Part shown: piece after piece, positions 35,058 through 42,467 of the stretch
How positions within the stretch are numbered: position 1 is the first letter of the stretch
Layout of the letters: every line of letters starts with the position of its first letter
From: Magnetovibrio sp.
GTDB taxonomy: Bacteria; Pseudomonadota; Alphaproteobacteria; Rhodospirillales; Magnetovibrionaceae
Reading direction: 5' to 3'
DNA: 61,739 nucleotides
NCBI GenBank assembly: GCA_028281525.1
Contig: JANQJR010000043.1
Location: 1 to 61,739 of the forward strand
Translations under genes and position numbers: made by a program
Notes under the pieces: model-generated
Told to the model about the DNA's origin: nothing
Database searches by the model: none
Seen by the model: the letters and a program-made list of their open reading frames with translations, nothing else

Positions 35058-36553
35058 GACGCCCCTCCATTATGCCTGAAAGCGTCTTCCAGAACCCAGG
35101 TGTCCTTGGTGCCGCCGCCCTGGGACGAGTTGACCACCAGCGAGCCTTGGTTCATGGCGACGCGGGTCAACCCGCCCGGCACCAGACGGACCTTGTCTGC
35201 GCCGACCAGGACGAAAGGTCTCAGGTCCACATGGCGGGGGGCATAGCCGTCAGAAACGAAGGTTGGCGTGGTGGACAGCGCCAAGGTCGGCTGGGCGATG
35301 AAGTCGTCGGGGTCCGCCTTGATGCGCTGTGCATAAGCTTCGCGTTCCTCTTGGGTCGACGCCGGGCCCACCAGCATGCCGTAACCGCCGAAGCCCGCGA
35401 CCTCCTTGACCACCAGTTCGTCCAAGTGTTCCAAGACGTATTTGTAATCGTCGTTGCGTGCGCACCAAAAGGTCGGCACGTTCTTCAGGATCGGCTCCTC
35501 ACCCAGATAAAAACGGATCATCTTCGGCACGTACATGTAGATGGCCTTGTCGTCGGCGATGCCGCCGCCCACCGCGTTGGTGAGCGTCACGCCGCCCGCG
35601 CGGTACACGTTCATGATGCCGGGCACGCCCAAGGCGCTGTCGGAACGGAACGCCAGCGGGTCGAGGAAGTCGTCGTCGATGCGCCGGTAGATCACGTCGA
35701 CCCGCTGCGGGCCTTGGGTGGTGCGCATGAACACCGTGTTGTCCTTGACGAACAGGTCTTGGCCCTCGACCAGTTCCACGCCCATCTTGTCGGCGAGGAA
35801 CGTGTGTTCGTAATAAGCGGCGTTGTAGAGGCCCGGCGACAGAACAACCACCGTGGGATCGCCTTCGCACGACGGCGGCGCGACGGATTTGAGACTCGCG
35901 AGCAATTCATCTGGATAGCGTTCCACCGGCGCGACTTGGTGGCGGCTGAACAGGTCGGGGAACAGACGCATCATCACTTCGCGGTTCTGCAGCATGTAGG
36001 ATACGCCGGACGGCGTGCGGGTGTTGTCTTCCAGGACGTAAAAATCCACCGCCCCGGTGCGCACCAGATCGATCCCGGCGACGTGGGTGTAGATGCCGCC
36101 GGGAACAGACACGCCGCGCATTTCCGGCAAGAAAGATTTGTTCTGCAACACCAAATGTTCGGGCACGAGCCCCGCGCGGATGATCTCGCGTTCGTGATAG
36201 ACATCGTGCATGAACATGTTGAGCGCACGGACCCGCTGCTCCAACCCACGCGCCATAAACGCCCATTCCTTGGCCAGCAACAGGCGGGGGATGATGTCAA
36301 ACGGGATCAGGCGCTCCGGGTCGCCGCCTTCGCCGTAGACCGCAAACGTGATGCCGATGCGCCGAAACAAGGCTTCGGCTTCGGTCTGGCGGACCTTGAG
36401 CATGTCGCGGGGCGCCTTGACCATCCAGTCCGCCAGTTGCTCCATGCCCGGATGAGGCTGGCCGTTGGGCTGCACCAGTTCGTCGTAAAAATTTGCGAAG
36501 TCTTCCGGCAGGTCTTCCGTATCTTGGTCTTGGTTGTTTTGGGGGTCGCTCAT
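35051..36553 (-). CDS. Circularly permuted ATP-grasp peptide-ligase-like protein
   Basis: 500 residues. The family patterns are the ENTRTPSGVSYML-like segment, SPGLYNAAYYEH, and VYRRIDDDFLDP; the ATP-grasp region with FGGYGMLVGP follows at ~360-400. Such proteins probably form amide bonds with ATP. It is the promoter-proximal gene of the Anbu cluster. I start at the ATG at 36553 (MSDPQNNQ); an in-frame upstream start would add 14 residues. Confidence 0.9.
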   Translation of the reverse strand: MSDPQNNQDQDTEDLPEDFANFYDELVQPNGQPHPGMEQLADWMVKAPRDMLKVRQTEAEALFRRIGITFAVYGEGGDPERLIPFDIIPRLLLAKEWAFMARGLEQRVRALNMFMHDVYHEREIIRAGLVPEHLVLQNKSFLPEMRGVSVPGGIYTHVAGIDLVRTGAVDFYVLEDNTRTPSGVSYMLQNREVMMRLFPDLFSRHQVAPVERYPDELLASLKSVAPPSCEGDPTVVVLSPGLYNAAYYEHTFLADKMGVELVEGQDLFVKDNTVFMRTTQGPQRVDVIYRRIDDDFLDPLAFRSDSALGVPGIMNVYRAGGVTLTNAVGGGIADDKAIYMYVPKMIRFYLGEEPILKNVPTFWCARNDDYKYVLEHLDELVVKEVAGFGGYGMLVGPASTQEEREAYAQRIKADPDDFIAQPTLALSTTPTFVSDGYAPRHVDLRPFVLVGADKVRLVPGGLTRVAMNQGSLVVNSSQGGGTKDTWVLEDAFRHNGGASC

Positions 36554-36874
36554 GCAGAGCTGTCTCCTGGGTTGGGGGCATACCCATTTACGCAACGCAC
36601 ATGCCAGCTCAACGAGGGCTGAGCCGGTTGGGAATCAGGGGATTTTAAAGGGTTTTTGCCGTGGCGCAGCCAAAAATCGCATAAATTTTAATCATGGCGG
36701 GAATGGTGCTCAAAAATGCATCATCTGAGGAATGTCCCATTATTGGAGTTACCACCACCAGATTGCGATCAATGCAGGACTGCGAAGCAATGCGTTGGAC
36801 CTTCTGTGTGACGCTTGGGGTTAGCAAGGTTCCGAAGTGTGCGGGACAGTTAGACTTGTTTAGTTATGCGTTTT
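36554..36874. other. 321-base gap without a convincing gene
   Basis: This gap separates the Anbu cluster from the low-GC operon; both lie on the minus strand. It must hold the Anbu cluster promoter, but no strong -35/-10 pair was seen. A TTTAAAAT stretch near 36636-36645 is a possible -10. No inverted terminal repeats or tRNA were found, and the short frames in it look random. Confidence 0.5.
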
Positions 36875-37519
36875 TCATGAAACGTCCGACATGGTCGAGA
36901 TGAAAACCATCTCTTTACCATTTGCGACCGAAGATAAATTGGGAAGGTCCCGTTTCCAATACCCAGTTTCCAAATCCCAGAAAAAGGGGAACATCTTTCC
37001 AGGATAGAGATCAACAGACACCTCTTGAACGTAATAAATCCAGCAAAATACAGCGAGCTCTTCAATGATGAAAGATGCGGAAAGTTCTTGAGCATCTTGA
37101 CTGTTGATTCCGCCCCATTCGGATACGTAGCCAAGAATTTCAGAGCGAAACAAAGGGGACGTTTCGAATGCTGATTTTAATTCCTTGCGAAAGGATTTTA
37201 CATTCTGCCGACTGTCAAAGTCGGGCCACCTTTGTATGCGCAAGAATTCGGGGTCGGATTGTGCGAACACACGGTAAACCATAGCTTCCCGTTCATCGCC
37301 AATTTTTATGTTTTTTTCTAGCATGCCAGCGGTTGGGGTCGACAATTGCTGCAAAGAGGCATCATTGTAAGCATAAGGAATGTCAACAATCGTAACTTGC
37401 AGAGGTTTGTTGTAGTCCTCTGCAAGACGGCGAATGTTTGAAAACCAGGACTTTGAAAAGTTCTTATTTCGTGAGGAATAACCTACCCCAAACGCCTTGC
37501 TCTCATGCAAAGAGGACAT
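36875..37519 (-). CDS. Divergent tRNA-dependent cyclodipeptide synthase (CDPS)
   Basis: 214 residues. The catalytic-serine region GVGYSSRNKNFS (Ser15, Asn18, Phe21) aligns position by position with the GxSxxNxxFS motif of characterised CDPSs such as AlbC. LRIQRW, then SAFETSPLF, matches the next helices. SASFIIEELAVF carries the catalytic Glu154, with Phe150 in the place of the usual Tyr. CDPSs take aminoacyl groups from two charged tRNAs to make cyclic dipeptides. The ATG at 37519 follows GGAGAAAGGA; it leaves the N-terminus ~20 residues short of AlbC, so an alternative start is possible. It is lower in GC than its neighbours. Confidence 0.72.
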   Translation of the reverse strand: MSSLHESKAFGVGYSSRNKNFSKSWFSNIRRLAEDYNKPLQVTIVDIPYAYNDASLQQLSTPTAGMLEKNIKIGDEREAMVYRVFAQSDPEFLRIQRWPDFDSRQNVKSFRKELKSAFETSPLFRSEILGYVSEWGGINSQDAQELSASFIIEELAVFCWIYYVQEVSVDLYPGKMFPFFWDLETGYWKRDLPNLSSVANGKEMVFISTMSDVS

Positions 37520-37584
37520 AAAGTCCTTTCTCCGAGAAGTTACGACAACTGAACCAATGAAAGGCAGTTGGATTTGTGCCTTGG

Positions 37585-38229
37585 TCAGGTGAGCTCGACG
37601 ACGTGGTTCCAATCTTTTGATCCTGATAATTCTGACGCTTGAATTTGTAATCGCTGCCAATTTGTTGCCCTCTGCTCTAGATAAAGCAGAACAACGCCAG
37701 GCCACACTCCAGGCCACATCAATACGAGTATATATAGCCAATCGGACTGCCAAGCCTGAGGTAGCGAGATGAAGACGATCGAGATGAACAGTGTTGAGAG
37801 AAAAATGAAAACGATCTTATTCCAGGACGTACAGTTGTAGATTCGACTCTTCAGCAAATCCCATGTTGTGATCATTTGAAGCATCAGAATATTTACGTCT
37901 TTCACGTCCTCGATATAGAAACGAGAAATTTGTGTTTGAACAACCAATTGGTTGCCGTCTTTGTAAATGGCGGCTTGCTGCAGGTCGTGGCTTGGCCGGA
38001 TATAGAGATAATTGCTGCCCAACCATCCATTCGCAGAGTGAACAAACTTTGTCAGTTTGCCACGTAAAGCCAGAAAAGACGCAGCTGACGCTAGAAAAGC
38101 AATAAGGAAGGGAGTGAGCTGCCCCGCAAGGGCAACCCCTATTATCTCGTTTGCAAGTGAAACGATCAGGTCGATGACGCTACTGGGGTCTATGGATGGT
38201 GGAGGTGGTGCTTGGGTTATCTTTTCCAC
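37585..38229 (-). CDS. Membrane protein of unknown function, middle gene of the CDPS operon
   Basis: 214 residues; the family is not recognised. About four membrane segments are seen: two near the N-terminus (~18-36 and ~38-56) and two at ~137-156 and ~164-185. A polar region (~60-130) between the pairs has a beta-rich stretch (YLYIRPSHDL, ISRFYIEDVKDV). It starts at a GTG after a perfect AGGAGGAG. It lies 12 bases after the permease gene and 65 bases before the CDPS, so a helper role in export or synthesis is inferred. Confidence 0.75.
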   Translation of the reverse strand: MEKITQAPPPPSIDPSSVIDLIVSLANEIIGVALAGQLTPFLIAFLASAASFLALRGKLTKFVHSANGWLGSNYLYIRPSHDLQQAAIYKDGNQLVVQTQISRFYIEDVKDVNILMLQMITTWDLLKSRIYNCTSWNKIVFIFLSTLFISIVFISLPQAWQSDWLYILVLMWPGVWPGVVLLYLEQRATNWQRLQIQASELSGSKDWNHVVELT

Positions 38230-38241
38230 TTTCTCCTCCTC

Positions 38242-39897
38242 TTAGACGGTTTCTGATTGAGGTTTGCGCGATGCTGTCATGCCGACTAGGCAAACCAAAA
38301 AAGAAGTGCAGATCGCAGAAATTGACGGAAACACCAATGTGGCAAGATAGGGCAAGCCAAACGGGTTGAAGGAATTGATCGTGCCAACGGCGGCACCCAA
38401 AAGAACCGCGGATATTAACCACACGGTAGGTATTGAGGGTACAAAAATACGCATCAACATGGGGGGGGCAAAAACCAGCCCCCAGGAATAGACTGCGCCA
38501 AGAAGTACGAACGCATCAATGCCCCCCGCGATTTGTGCAGCGGCTATGGCAAGCATAATGACGATAACAAAGAACAAGGAAGCGAACCGTGCTTTGAGTT
38601 TGCCGCCGGTAATGGAATCTATGGCGCCCATCTGGCCGATAGCGATCACCCCTGAATCGAGTGTGCTGTAGAGTACAGAGATGATGAACAGTGAGAGTGA
38701 AACCAGCACAGTAATCTGGATGAGGGTGCCATTTTCGGCCCCACTTAGGACCAGTTGAACAAATTGGTCAAAAACGTTCGCTGCACCAGGCTCAATAAGT
38801 CCTGAGACACGAAGCGCAATGCCCAAAAAGATTCCAATAGACCACGTGGCCGGAGATGGGATCGCTGTTGACAATATGCTTGCTCTTAAAAAAGAAGAGT
38901 TCGCTTCATCATTTTGCGTTTTCTTCAGGATAGAAATACGGTGATAGGCTGTGTAGTCACTGAACTGCCAAAGAATATTGGCAAGAGAAAAACCAATAAT
39001 TGGCCAGATGCCGTTTGGCTCACGCCACATTGACAGTAGGCCCGGAATGACGCTGCCTGTCGCAGTTGAAGCAATATCTTCTTGGCCGAGGTAAAACAAC
39101 ACACAGATCAGAAGTGCTATTGCAGCCCCGATACTGGGAAGTATCGGGATTTCGATGGATATATTGATTGAGAGCGCTTTATAGATGCCGCGCAATGCAA
39201 CAGGCCACAGCAAGATTGTTGCGTAGAGAATTATTGTCGTGATCAGCAAGACATGCGCATCGAGCCTGTTCGCGATCACTGTCTGATCTAAGACGTAACA
39301 AATGAGAAGAGAAGAGGTGATATAGGATATAAACAATTGCATTTTATCCGTAGCGACGACCTTCTTCATGCCCCCAATCGCCGCGTATGCCATCATGAGA
39401 ATCATGAGCAGCGCGAATACCGCCCAGTAGGCGTCTGCGCGGCTTAATTCCGGTTTGTCATTGATCAGAGCGCTCGTGAGGAACTGAGATGAAAAGTACA
39501 TTTCAGTGTAGATCAGCCCCGATAAGCTGGCCGAAAAAATGAGGGCTGATATTATTTTTAAACGGGCATTGTCACCGAAAAGCAGTTCGAAAAGGGTTCT
39601 ATGCTTTTTTGTGAATTGAGCAAGAACGGGTGCAAATGCTGAAAACGCAATGATGCCGAGCAGCCAGGTAATGATAAAGATGAAGTTCGACCATCCGTAC
39701 GTAAATCCCCAGTAAATAAAATATATGGTGACTGCGACTTGAAAGCTGTATGCGACAGTGGTGCTTGCGTAATCCGAAGCTGTTGCTTTTTGCGACATGA
39801 AGAAGAAGCTGTTGTGGTCTTGTCGAACATCTGCCCTGTAAAGCCCCACCGCCATAAACACCATTGCAGCGGTAGCAATAACAAATAATGCCAACAT
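38242..39897 (-). CDS. SSS-like solute:sodium symporter, first gene of the CDPS operon
   Basis: 551 residues, about 13 membrane segments, LeuT-type fold inferred. GGMKKVVATDKMQLFISYI matches the conserved core of the sodium:solute symporter family, and LANILWQFSDYTAYHR matches a later SSS segment. Only 12 bases separate it from the next gene. The substrate is unknown; in this operon a cyclic dipeptide, or a precursor amino acid, is possible. GGAGGGG precedes the ATG. Base composition is clearly poorer in GC than the ribosomal and pcc regions. Confidence 0.82.
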   Translation of the reverse strand: MLALFVIATAAMVFMAVGLYRADVRQDHNSFFFMSQKATASDYASTTVAYSFQVAVTIYFIYWGFTYGWSNFIFIITWLLGIIAFSAFAPVLAQFTKKHRTLFELLFGDNARLKIISALIFSASLSGLIYTEMYFSSQFLTSALINDKPELSRADAYWAVFALLMILMMAYAAIGGMKKVVATDKMQLFISYITSSLLICYVLDQTVIANRLDAHVLLITTIILYATILLWPVALRGIYKALSINISIEIPILPSIGAAIALLICVLFYLGQEDIASTATGSVIPGLLSMWREPNGIWPIIGFSLANILWQFSDYTAYHRISILKKTQNDEANSSFLRASILSTAIPSPATWSIGIFLGIALRVSGLIEPGAANVFDQFVQLVLSGAENGTLIQITVLVSLSLFIISVLYSTLDSGVIAIGQMGAIDSITGGKLKARFASLFFVIVIMLAIAAAQIAGGIDAFVLLGAVYSWGLVFAPPMLMRIFVPSIPTVWLISAVLLGAAVGTINSFNPFGLPYLATLVFPSISAICTSFLVCLVGMTASRKPQSETV

Positions 39898-40220
39898 TGT
39901 TTTTCCCCTCCACTCGTAACAGCTAGCACCTTAATCGCTGTCTCTCTTTCAATATGTTGAAGACAAGTTTTAGGAAAACTTATCTCACTTAATGGTGGTA
40001 TATCAAGTGGTCATGAGTCTTTATGGGATGGTATTTTTAAGGTGGTGGCATGACGATATGATCTTGTAATAATTGTGCATTGTCAGGAGTTAAATGCGTG
40101 TAACGCTTGCGGTAATGTGAGCTGTTTGGAGCCCTGATTAAGTGTCAGGATCGAAGGGGAGTTACCTCAACTCTGTTGGGAAAAAGAGATCGTGTTTGAA
40201 ATTAGCGACAAAAAGGGGGC
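39898..40220. other. 323-base intergenic gap
   Basis: This AT-rich gap holds the candidate promoter at 39965-40006. No gene, RNA or mobile element end was recognised in it. It marks the right edge of the low-GC segment. Confidence 0.5.
39965..40006 (-). promoter_or_regulatory. Candidate promoter and operator of the CDPS operon
   Basis: Read on the minus strand, TTGATA (40001-40006) and GATAAG (39979-39984) are 16 bases apart and make a plausible promoter 80 bases before the permease. A palindrome AAGTTTT-AGG-AAAACTT (39965-39981) overlaps the -10 box and may be an operator. Confidence 0.4.
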
Positions 40221-40784
40221 TCAAGCCTGCTCGGACCCCTCTTCTTCCGGCAGTTGGTGGCGGAAGATCACCGGCAATTGGGTGAGGCTGAACAGCAATG
40301 TGAGCGGCATGATGGCGAAGACCTTGAAACTCACCCAGAAATCCGTGCTTTGCGTGCGCCACACCACCTCGTTCAGCACCGCGAGGAAGAGGAAAAACCA
40401 GGCCCAGCGCCACGTCAAAATGCGCCAACCTTCGTCGTCGATGTCGAGCGTGCTGCTCAGCACCGACTTCAGATAGCTTTTCTTGAACGCCAAACCGATG
40501 AACAGGATCGCGCCGAACATGGTGTTGACGATGGTCGGCTTGAGTTTGATGAACAGCTCGTCTTCGAGATAAAGCGTCAGCCCGCCAAACACCAAAACCA
40601 CGACGGCGGTGACCACCGGCAACGTGGCGATGTGGCCCATGTAGAAATAAGAGATGGCCAGCGAGATCATCACCGCGACCATGAACACGCCCGTGGCCAT
40701 GAAGATGCCGTGCGATGAATTGACGAAGAAAAACAGGACCAGAGGCCCGATCTCGATGGCCATTTTTGTGAGCGCTTTGTCCAT
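40221..40784 (-). CDS. yciB: Septation protein A / inner-membrane protein YciB
   Basis: 187 residues with five to six membrane segments. Family motifs are GPLVLFFFVN near the start, KPTIVNTMFGAILF, and RWAWFFLFLAVLNEVVW with FWVSFKVF. YciB/IspZ proteins affect cell-envelope synthesis and septation. The divergent pccB gene starts 150 bases away. Confidence 0.92.
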   Translation of the reverse strand: MDKALTKMAIEIGPLVLFFFVNSSHGIFMATGVFMVAVMISLAISYFYMGHIATLPVVTAVVVLVFGGLTLYLEDELFIKLKPTIVNTMFGAILFIGLAFKKSYLKSVLSSTLDIDDEGWRILTWRWAWFFLFLAVLNEVVWRTQSTDFWVSFKVFAIMPLTLLFSLTQLPVIFRHQLPEEEGSEQA

Positions 40785-40835
40785 GGCGTGCTTATATCAA
40801 GTGGATTAAGTTGAGGAAATGACGGATTTGTAAAT

Positions 40836-40870
40836 TTTGCCTTGCACAATGCACTTCGCAAGTGCAAAAA
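40836..40870 (+). promoter_or_regulatory. Palindromic candidate operator upstream of pccB
   Basis: TGCACTT-CGC-AAGTGCA (40850-40866) is a perfect 7-bp dyad, nested in a wider TTTGC...GCAAA symmetry. It lies 70 bases before pccB, next to a CATAAT (40877-40882). In alphaproteobacteria ScfR/PccR-type regulators bind TTTGC/GCAAA sites before propionyl-CoA carboxylase genes; the match here is partial. Confidence 0.5.
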
Positions 40871-40934
40871 ACTCGTCATAATAATAAAAATACATAACAA
40901 TAAGCCTGTCACAGAGAGACCCGGGGAAAATCCA

Positions 40935-42467
40935 GTGCACGACATCATCGAAGAATTGGACAAACGCCGTCAGCAAGCGCGTATGGGCGGCGGACAACGG
41001 CGTATCGACACCCAGCACGCCAAAGGCAAACTCACCGCGCGCGAGCGCATTGAATTGTTGCTCGATCCGGGCTCGTTCGAAGAGTGGGACATGTTCGTGG
41101 AGCACGGCTGCACCGACTTCGGCATGGACAAGCAATCCATTCCCGGCGACGGCGTGGTGACCGGCTACGGCACCGTCAACGGCCGCTTGATTTTCGTCTT
41201 CAGCCAGGATTTCACCGTGTTCGGCGGATCGCTGAGCGAGGCCCACGCCAACAAGATCGCCAAGATCATGGACCAAGCCATGAAAGTCGGCGCACCGGTG
41301 ATCGGCTTGAATGATTCCGGCGGTGCGCGCATCCAGGAAGGCATTGACTCCTTGGCGGGATATGCCGAAGTCTTTACCCGCAACGTGTTGGCGTCGGGCG
41401 TGATCCCGCAGATTTCCGTGATCATGGGCCCGTGCGCGGGTGGGGCGGTGTATTCCCCGGCCATGACCGATTTCATCTTCATGGTCGAAGACACGTCCTA
41501 CATGTTCGTCACCGGCCCGGATGTCGTCAAAACCGTGACCCACGAAGAGGTCACCCAGGAAGAACTGGGCGGCGCGTCGGCGCACACGGCGAAGTCCGGC
41601 GTGGCGCACAATGCGTTCACCAACGATGCCGAAGCGCTGCTTTATCTGCGCCGTTTCATCGATTTCCTGCCCGCCAACAACAAAGAAAAGCCGCCGGTGC
41701 GCCCGACGCCCGACAGCCCCGACCGCGTGGAGATGTCGCTGGACACCCTGATCCCCGACAACCCCAACAAGCCCTACGATATGAAGGAGCTGATCGAAAA
41801 GGTCGTCGACGAAGGCGATTTCTTCGAACTGATGCCGAACTATGCGGCCAACATCATCATTGGCTTCGCACGCATCGAAGGCTCCACCGTCGGTGTCGTC
41901 GCCAACCAGCCGATGGTTCTGGCGGGGTGTCTGGACATCGACAGCTCGCTCAAGGCCGCCCGCTTCGTGCGCTACTGCGACGCGTTCAATATCCCCATCG
42001 TGACCTTCGTCGACGTGCCGGGCTTCCTGCCCGGCACCGCGCAGGAACACGGCGGCATCATCACCCACGGCGCGAAGTTGCTGTATGCCTTCACCGAAGC
42101 CACCGTGCCGAAGGTCACCGTCATCACGCGCAAAGCCTACGGCGGTGCGTATGACGTGATGAGTTCCAAGCACCTGCGCGGCGACGTCAATTTCGCCTGG
42201 CCCAGCGCGGAGATCGCGGTGATGGGGCCGAAAGGCGCGGTGGAAATCATTTTCCGCGCCGACATGGGTGATCCGGACAAGATCGAGCAGCGCACCGAAG
42301 AATACCGCAAGGCCTTCGCCAACCCGTTCGTCGCGGGCAAGCGCGGTTTCATCGACGACGTGATCATGCCGCACAATACCCGCGTGCGCATCTCGCGCTC
42401 GTTGCGCATGCTCAAGGACAAGAAGGTTGAAAACCCGTGGAAAAAGCATGGGAACATTCCGCTCTAA
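40935..42467 (+). CDS. pccB: Propionyl-CoA carboxylase beta subunit (carboxyltransferase)
   Basis: 510 residues, exactly the usual length when started at the GTG at 40935. It has the crotonase-like carboxyltransferase fold: [11 protein letters not shown] and [13 protein letters not shown] in the N-half and the acyl-CoA region [25 protein letters not shown] in the C-half. It moves carboxyl from biotin to propionyl-CoA, giving methylmalonyl-CoA. The biotin-bearing subunit is encoded two genes later. Confidence 0.95.

Follow-up and report, generated by a model that had tools for sequence, protein, structure and literature searches.

A divergent cyclodipeptide synthase homologue and two membrane-protein genes in a low-GC island of Magnetovibrio sp.

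Here we analyzed a stretch of 61,739 nucleotides of Magnetovibrio sp. DNA (contig JANQJR010000043.1; the whole of it is called the window below), in which three successive minus-strand genes encode a permease resembling the sodium solute symporters (SSS), a membrane protein that belongs to no recognized family and a divergent homologue of the cyclodipeptide synthases (CDPSs). The permease gene (38242..39897) comes first, starts with ATG and specifies 551 amino acids; the middle gene (37585..38229) starts with GTG and specifies 214; and the third gene (36875..37519), whose soluble product resembles the XYP subfamily of CDPSs, specifies 214 amino acids from the ATG at 37519, or 245 if the alternative TTG at 37612 is taken as the start. 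The first two genes are 12 bases apart (38230-38241) and the last two 65 (37520-37584). By eye, a purine-rich stretch resembling a ribosome-binding site precedes every start on the same strand, namely GGAGGGG (39905..39911) for the permease gene, AGGAGG (38235..38240) for the middle gene and AAGGA (37524..37528), only 4 bases from the ATG at 37519, for the CDPS gene. The layout described in an earlier note on this DNA, including the two gaps and the ribosome-binding sites, is borne out by these data, and its statement that the locus carries no oxidase, methyltransferase or cytochrome P450 agrees with the Pfam results for the three genes. Neither promoter-like sites (3 versus 5.1 expected) nor terminator-like sites (3 versus 3.8 expected) exceeded the shuffled sequences at the locus, and no Rfam match was found in 36000-41000. 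Elsewhere in the window, the acyl-CoA carboxylase gene has its closest plasmid matches in Azospirillum and Niveispirillum, at 77-79% in the eight rows listed, from which the host would be an alphaproteobacterium.

The base composition of the three genes sets them apart from eight other genes of the window, two of which are their direct neighbours. GC content is 0.44-0.47 in the trio against 0.56-0.62 in the others, GC at third codon positions (GC3) is 0.474, 0.507 and 0.531 against 0.736-0.830, and the codon index, derived from the same eight genes that serve as the comparison, is 0.34-0.39 against 0.63-0.75. Genome alignment places the trio within a low-GC island (36600..40220, ends approximate) between an ATP-grasp gene and ispZ, the outer non-coding stretches of which have GC contents of 0.48 and 0.42. 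In two of the five same-genus genomes (G012 and G016) the block between ispZ and the ATP-grasp gene has no counterpart: the alignment to them ends at 36490 and 36448 and restarts at 40231 and 40263, respectively, the short matches inside (36546-36575 and 36546-36568) being the start of the ATP-grasp gene. The ends of the open reading frames (ORFs) put ispZ 0.12-0.17 kb from the ATP-grasp gene in these two genomes, as compared with about 3.7 kb in the window, and the distance between the aligned stretches at the junction is 0.23-0.27 kb. Two other genomes (G013 and G014) match on the ispZ side only, and the fifth (G015) has the two sides on separate contigs. In G015 and G014 (L078 and L079) another ORF, encoding about 320 amino acids, takes the place of the ATP-grasp gene after ispZ, which indicates that this junction is a variable place within the genus. 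The short junction in G012 and G016 means that the block was either gained in the lineage of the window or lost in both relatives; the junction comparison alone does not separate these possibilities, and base composition favours gain over loss. The ends of the island are not marked by any tRNA, and no striking direct or inverted repeats were found at the island, whose non-coding stretches were not searched for transposase remnants. The alignment to the relatives and the base composition support an island-like block, which the earlier note had called acquired, and the lower GC that had been noted for it holds for GC and GC3 alike.

In the case of the third gene, the comparison with known CDPSs relied on profiles made from plasmid and genome sequences. 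Twelve plasmid CDPS loci were fetched, nine of which entered an alignment rich in NYH-type sequences (A1, with two members lacking a defined start) and seven a phylogenetic tree. Addition of the query to A1, with the rows realigned, gave a second alignment (A2) that was used as a profile on 385 genomes of the same class and matched nine of them, the genome of the window included; two matches were left out (G791, 17.5 bits, with an internal stop, and G297, 17.3 bits) and six were used. Five of these six pass TIGR04539 independently (62.2, 64.2, 55.3, 212 and 166.9 bits), the sixth being 0.3 bits short. Four of the six form the alignment A7, which is mildly circular as its members came from a profile containing the query, and a further alignment, A6, has five rows. 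Comparison of the CDPS homologue with A7 by hhalign yielded a probability of 92.9%, and with A1 of 74.6%, the control comparison of the middle protein with A1 yielding 0.1%. The A7 profile scored 31.6 bits on the CDPS homologue, against no more than 8.7 bits in 3000 shuffles and a best score of 3.8 bits on the other 518 stop-to-stop frames of at least 60 codons in the window, and an XYP profile of six rows (the four of A7 plus stretches of the solved chains 5ocd and 9j61) scored 39.2 bits, with an E value of 3.9e-10 for 18950 sequences. In a comparison less exposed to this circularity, addition of the query to A1 also raised the scores of solved chains that belong to neither alignment: the XYP enzymes 5ocd (from 20.9 to 29.9 bits), 5mlp (from 18.7 to 22.3), 9j61 (from 47.9 to 54.7) and 7qat (from 30.2 to 41.5), and also 9gun (from 32.1 to 38.5), whereas NYH-type chains including 6ez3, 6ztu and AlbC lost 5 to 13 bits; the two profiles differ by a realignment of the rows, and the comparison had no random-protein control. 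Judged by profiles, hhalign, alignment and tree, the third gene is a real, divergent CDPS homologue, as the earlier note had proposed for it.

Searches for closer relatives of this protein found none in genome contigs, viral contigs, plasmids or phages, and only the gene itself in 18 genomes of the family and 398 of the phylum and, with the A6 profile, in 77 of the order. A search of the 398 phylum genomes with TIGR04539 at E 0.001, which also missed the CDPS gene of the window, gave one match of 20.6 bits that was judged to be due to chance and lies in a locus where the long frames resemble, on visual inspection, a regulator and enzymes of other kinds; a match to phrog_25115 (E 0.079) was weak and was not used. 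Curated profile cut-offs miss CDPS homologues as divergent as this one.

Alignments placed the residues of the active site on the minus strand as follows. Ser15 (37475..37477), within GYSSRNKNF, is the equivalent of the catalytic Ser37 of AlbC; Glu154 (37058..37060), invariant in the alignments, is that of Glu182; Phe150 (37070..37072) stands at the tyrosine of the YxxxE motif (Tyr178 in AlbC); and Tyr172-Pro173 (37001..37006) corresponds to Tyr202-Pro203, the mark of the XYP subfamily. Together with Gly174, this pair aligns with the Tyr-Pro-Gly of four CDPSs and is invariant in the five rows of A6. Ser, Glu-Glu and Tyr-Pro-Gly are conserved in order, and position 40 is Asn. The serine motif, the catalytic glutamate and the replacement of Tyr by Phe that had been read from the sequence earlier are all confirmed by the alignment. 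The XYP subfamily is defined by Tyr202-Pro203 with position 40 free (PMC7613923; PMC7566563). In a tree of the query and 18 other rows, seven labelled as XYP by motif and 11 others, the query grouped with the seven XYP rows with support of 99/97, apart from the 11; its nearest row by tree path was 9j61, and the highest identity in the tree alignment was 19%, to the CDPS of a genome of the same class (G790). Going by the Tyr-Pro pair and the tree, and noting its long branch, the CDPS homologue appears to fall with the XYP enzymes.

The start of the protein bears on its tRNA binding. In XYP enzymes a basic beta2 strand with the motif K-phi-X-F before the catalytic serine binds tRNA (PMC7566563), and because the 214-residue form begins 14 residues ahead of that serine, this strand would be missing from it. 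The frame is open for 99 codons upstream of the ATG at 37519 (37520-37816), a stretch that takes in the final 77 codons of the middle gene. When that gene was shuffled 20000 times by codon and 20000 times synonymously, an equally long open stretch arose inside it 532 and 1931 times, respectively. The upstream in-frame stretch contains RRK, and the A7 score obtained with it was matched by 116 of 500 and 246 of 1000 shuffled extensions. The longer form of 245 residues from the TTG at 37612 is possible, and profile scores do not decide between the two forms. The solved chain 9gun from Porphyromonas gingivalis, which is named a CDPS and has 207 residues (possibly a construct), matches A1 from its residue 3. 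Errors in the assignment of start codons are one suggested cause of inactive CDPSs (Gondry et al., PMC5816076).

The product of the first gene is polytopic, with 11 hydrophobic segments on a simple hydrophobicity scale, and carries TxxE at residue 101, GGMKKVVATDKMQ at 175 and STLDS at 411. It thus has, in order, GG-x-basic-...-TD-x-x-Q and S-T-x-D-S, which we take to be the signatures of the SSF family (PF00474). Of 200000 shuffles, 8 contained a pattern modelled on GGMKKVVATDKMQ; in the 1538 frames with 100 codons or more from all loci and the window, that pattern was found only in the permease (three records of one gene) and in two proteins matched by PF00474 (L017 and L034) that have both GG...TD..Q and STxDS. 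Aligned with a hidden Markov model (HMM) built from nine SSF proteins, the permease is collinear from residue 3 to residue 191, and the alignment ends in GGMKKVVATDKMQ. Comparison with two small SSF sets by hhalign was weak, with probabilities of 4.8% and 2.0% (P = 0.0084 and 0.025), phmmer found no relative among solved structures, and the structure model was of low quality (predicted local distance difference test, pLDDT, 41) and gave no useful match. The distance between the second and third signature stretches is 236 residues in the permease versus 157 and 143 in the two PF00474-matched proteins. We therefore use the term SSS-like and do not call the permease a member of the family, because the signatures are present but the SSF model does not match and the nine-protein HMM does not separate the permease from shuffles; of the sodium symporter that the earlier note had seen here, the SSS-type signatures stand, and a Pfam SSF match is wanting. 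Homologues of the permease were found in neither plasmids nor viral contigs, and only the gene itself was found in 398 genomes of the phylum and 297 of the order, the search of genome contigs having used one DNA pattern only and phages not being covered. That pattern, Y-W-G-x-x-Y-G-W, picked out 17 genome-contig stretches, the permease being encoded in none of them (lowest E value by tblastn, 0.16), and weak matches to SMIM43 (E 0.13) and CARF_TM (E 0.0086, 14.4 bits) were not used.

In the middle protein a soluble loop of about 80 residues is flanked by four hydrophobic segments, at residues 18-36, 37-55, 139-157 and 164-182. It matched no family in Pfam, NCBIfam, PADLOC or PHROGs, and no homologue was found in plasmids or viral contigs, genome contigs, phages and whole genomes lying outside the search. 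One match of 25 residues in a viral contig was judged to be due to chance, as it runs antisense to phage-type genes.

The neighbourhoods of other CDPS genes show which gene types accompany these enzymes elsewhere. Among ten annotated plasmid CDPS stretches, mostly with 2 kb on each side, an MFS gene was annotated in two and an SSS gene in none; two further plasmid CDPS loci carry no annotation. In three other genomes of the same class (L091:5739-7111, L092:1839-3228 and L093:2352-3825) an XYP-type CDPS gene adjoins an HTH_3 (XRE-type) gene whose product has 214-216 residues, with C-terminal halves that look alike in an alignment. The XRE-type regulator and the CDPS are a recurrent pair at these three loci, and we met no description of it in the literature search. 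Sensor-kinase domains or genes accompany the CDPS at three further loci (L089:6640-8880, L090:7333-9247 and L006:4965-7719): in G735 a frame of 746 amino acids joins the CDPS to PAS and HATPase domains, in G706 a CDPS gene is followed by a PAS-HATPase gene, and on a Legionella lytica plasmid a CDPS gene overlaps a PAS-HisKA-HATPase-receiver-Hpt gene. PAS domains near CDPSs have been reported (PMC5767969), and the literature search returned no paper title on a fusion of a CDPS with a sensor kinase. Two Streptomyces plasmid CDPS genes (L010 and L011) lie beside a heavy-metal P-type ATPase and ArsR/heavy-metal regulators and a third (L009) beside a BlaI/MecI/CopY regulator and CopC, neighbours that hint at a possible metal-related role for those CDPSs.

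Taking all these results together, we propose, tentatively and with slightly less than even confidence, that the block is a horizontally acquired operon whose XYP-type CDPS would form an unmodified cyclodipeptide from aminoacyl-tRNAs, with transport of either the precursor or the product by the carrier and the middle protein. Ser15 would take the aminoacyl group from one aminoacyl-tRNA, a second aminoacyl-tRNA would supply the next residue and Tyr172 would assist ring closure; the product would be an unmodified cyclodipeptide, formed slowly because Phe150 is without the usual hydroxyl. The weaker step of this scheme is the last, in which the SSS-like carrier and the middle protein would transport the cyclodipeptide or an amino acid that serves as its precursor. 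To our knowledge, SSS carriers of established function are importers and none is known as an exporter, for which reason import seems as likely as export, or likelier, and the export of the product by a symporter that had been suggested earlier is left unsupported. The tight gene spacing, the single insertion and the published mention of sodium solute symporters in the vicinity of CDPS genes (PMC4159871) support the operon reading. As a whole, the earlier interpretation concerned something real and divergent, and the reading given to it is partly supported.

Several results weigh against this proposal. The CDPS homologue scores 21 bits with TIGR04539 (E 2e-4) and 11.4 bits with PF16715 (E 0.26), short of the curated cut-offs of 45 and 27, and the A1 profile, which is free of circularity, gives it only 6.5 bits, where the best shuffle reached 5.7. 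At 3.38 changes per column its branch in the tree is very long, and the program used cautions about long-branch joins. The column of Phe150 holds Tyr in 18 of the 18 other rows of the tree alignment; active CDPSs keep the tyrosine of YxxxE almost without exception (PMC7566563), and since the Y178F replacement in AlbC impairs activity and the formation of the first aminoacyl-enzyme (PMC5935735), the activity of the CDPS homologue is uncertain. Moreover, the 214-residue form is without most of the N-terminal tRNA-binding strand of XYP enzymes. The single-sequence structure model of the CDPS homologue had low confidence (mean pLDDT 49), and with it Foldseek ranked YvmC (3oqj) 33rd of 36 at E 9.5 and found nothing at E 0.001, so that this model and that of the permease are too poor for use. 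The Pfam SSF model (PF00474) did not match the permease even at E up to 10. With the nine-protein SSF HMM the full-length score of the permease was equalled by 129 of 1000 plain shuffles and by 44 of 1000 block shuffles, and GG...TD..Q occurs in only 2 of the 9 SSF proteins compared, as does STxDS. Finally, tblastn around the six CDPSs of the class (regions of 4.2-15 kb) found the permease or the middle protein in none of the six, with a best E of 1.5 for each. The earlier note took it as counter-evidence if homologues of the three genes never stood together, and on this point the data speak against it only weakly, in that CDPS relatives are found without the other two and the searches made gave no homologue of either membrane protein.

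Part of this evidence would also be expected if the CDPS fold had been kept and full catalysis lost, the protein taking one aminoacyl group from a tRNA, or doing no more than bind charged tRNA, and acting with the membrane pair in sensing, hydrolysis or group transfer instead of producing a cyclodipeptide. Phe150 in place of a tyrosine found in all 18 rows, the very long branch, the short N-terminus and the effect of Y178F on the first aminoacyl-enzyme of AlbC (PMC5935735) fit such a protein, but Ser, Glu and Tyr-Pro, which a non-catalytic protein would not need, are all retained, and we regard this explanation as unlikely, if far from negligible. A related idea, to which we give little credence, is a membrane-coupled branch of the CDPS fold, that is, a truncated Tyr-to-Phe homologue that would work only with the carrier and a dedicated partner, for example by charging a membrane-held substrate or by gating amino-acid uptake according to the level of charged tRNA, with no release of free cyclodipeptide. 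If the genes had instead arrived together without forming one system, an orphan CDPS-like gene would share a transcript or a landing site with an unrelated transporter pair. The gap of 65 bases at the CDPS gene as opposed to 12 between the membrane genes, the lack of membrane genes at the six related CDPS loci and the failure of the searches made to find a homologue of either membrane gene agree with this, although the three genes share one strand, equally low GC3 and a single block of about 3.7 kb that has no striking repeats; on balance a mere joint arrival is rather improbable.

That the last gene is unrelated to CDPSs and matches them by chance is very improbable. Library scores below the curated cut-offs, the absence of any solved structure in phmmer searches at E up to 10, the A1 score (6.5 bits, best shuffle 5.7) and the finding of the four A7 sequences through a profile containing the query could be cited for it; they are opposed by the XYP profile score, the hhalign result, the ordered Ser, Glu-Glu and Tyr-Pro-Gly and the higher scores of solved XYP enzymes once the query is added. 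Equally improbable is a true CDPS whose membrane proteins would act as an efflux or immunity device, guarding the host from a toxic cyclodipeptide used on competitors: MFS genes adjoin CDPS genes in two of the ten annotated plasmid stretches and the island distribution would suit such a role, but none of the three genes encodes a regulator and SSS carriers are, as far as we know, not exporters.

Should the CDPS of the proposed operon be active, it would operate with Phe at an almost strictly conserved position, and an operon free of tailoring enzymes would offer a clean test of the use of unmodified cyclodipeptides and of the carriers that move them. Should it be inactive, the CDPS fold would have been reused together with membrane proteins.

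As to known systems, CDPS genes often have genes for ABC or MFS transporters, sodium solute symporters or TonB receptors nearby, and one or more tailoring enzymes generally accompany them, according to a review by Giessen and Marahiel (2014, PMC4159871). The pairing of an SSS gene with a CDPS gene is therefore known in kind, since that review lists it, and loci of that sort have the same pairing of gene types as the window, the text of the review naming no locus. What is unusual here is the lack of tailoring enzymes, the family-less membrane partner and the degree of divergence; no operon of this make-up was met in a literature search with thin coverage of subscription journals. Divergent CDPSs have been described in Legionella, Rickettsiella and chlamydiae (Aravind and co-workers, PMC2922099) and predicted ones in Candidatus Megaira (PMC10132079), reports that fit the small-genome relatives found in this analysis. 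The XYP CDPSs of solved structure (9j61, 5ocd, 5mlq and 5mlp) have the catalytic Ser, the Glu and the Tyr-Pro in common with the window protein, and 9j61 shares with it S-x-x-N-x-N-F after the catalytic Ser, whereas the window protein differs from them in having Phe for Tyr178 and, in its 214-residue form, a shorter N-terminus, and in scoring below the curated cut-offs. In the case of the SSF family (PF00474), the signature stretches follow in the same order as in the permease, both motifs being shared by two of the nine proteins compared, and the permease departs from the family in matching no SSF model, in having no solved relative by phmmer and in the longer spacing between its second and third stretches. 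Plasmid CDPS-P450 clusters and others of the yvm type are annotated with an MFS-type transporter, a P450 and MarR regulators, and YvmA is a putative permease (PMC4992311); the trio of the window has instead an SSS-like carrier and a family-less membrane protein, with neither tailoring enzyme nor regulator. In the Bacillus yvmC-cypX/yvmBA and plasmid CDPS-P450 clusters, as in the window, the CDPS gene nonetheless adjoins the gene of a membrane transporter.

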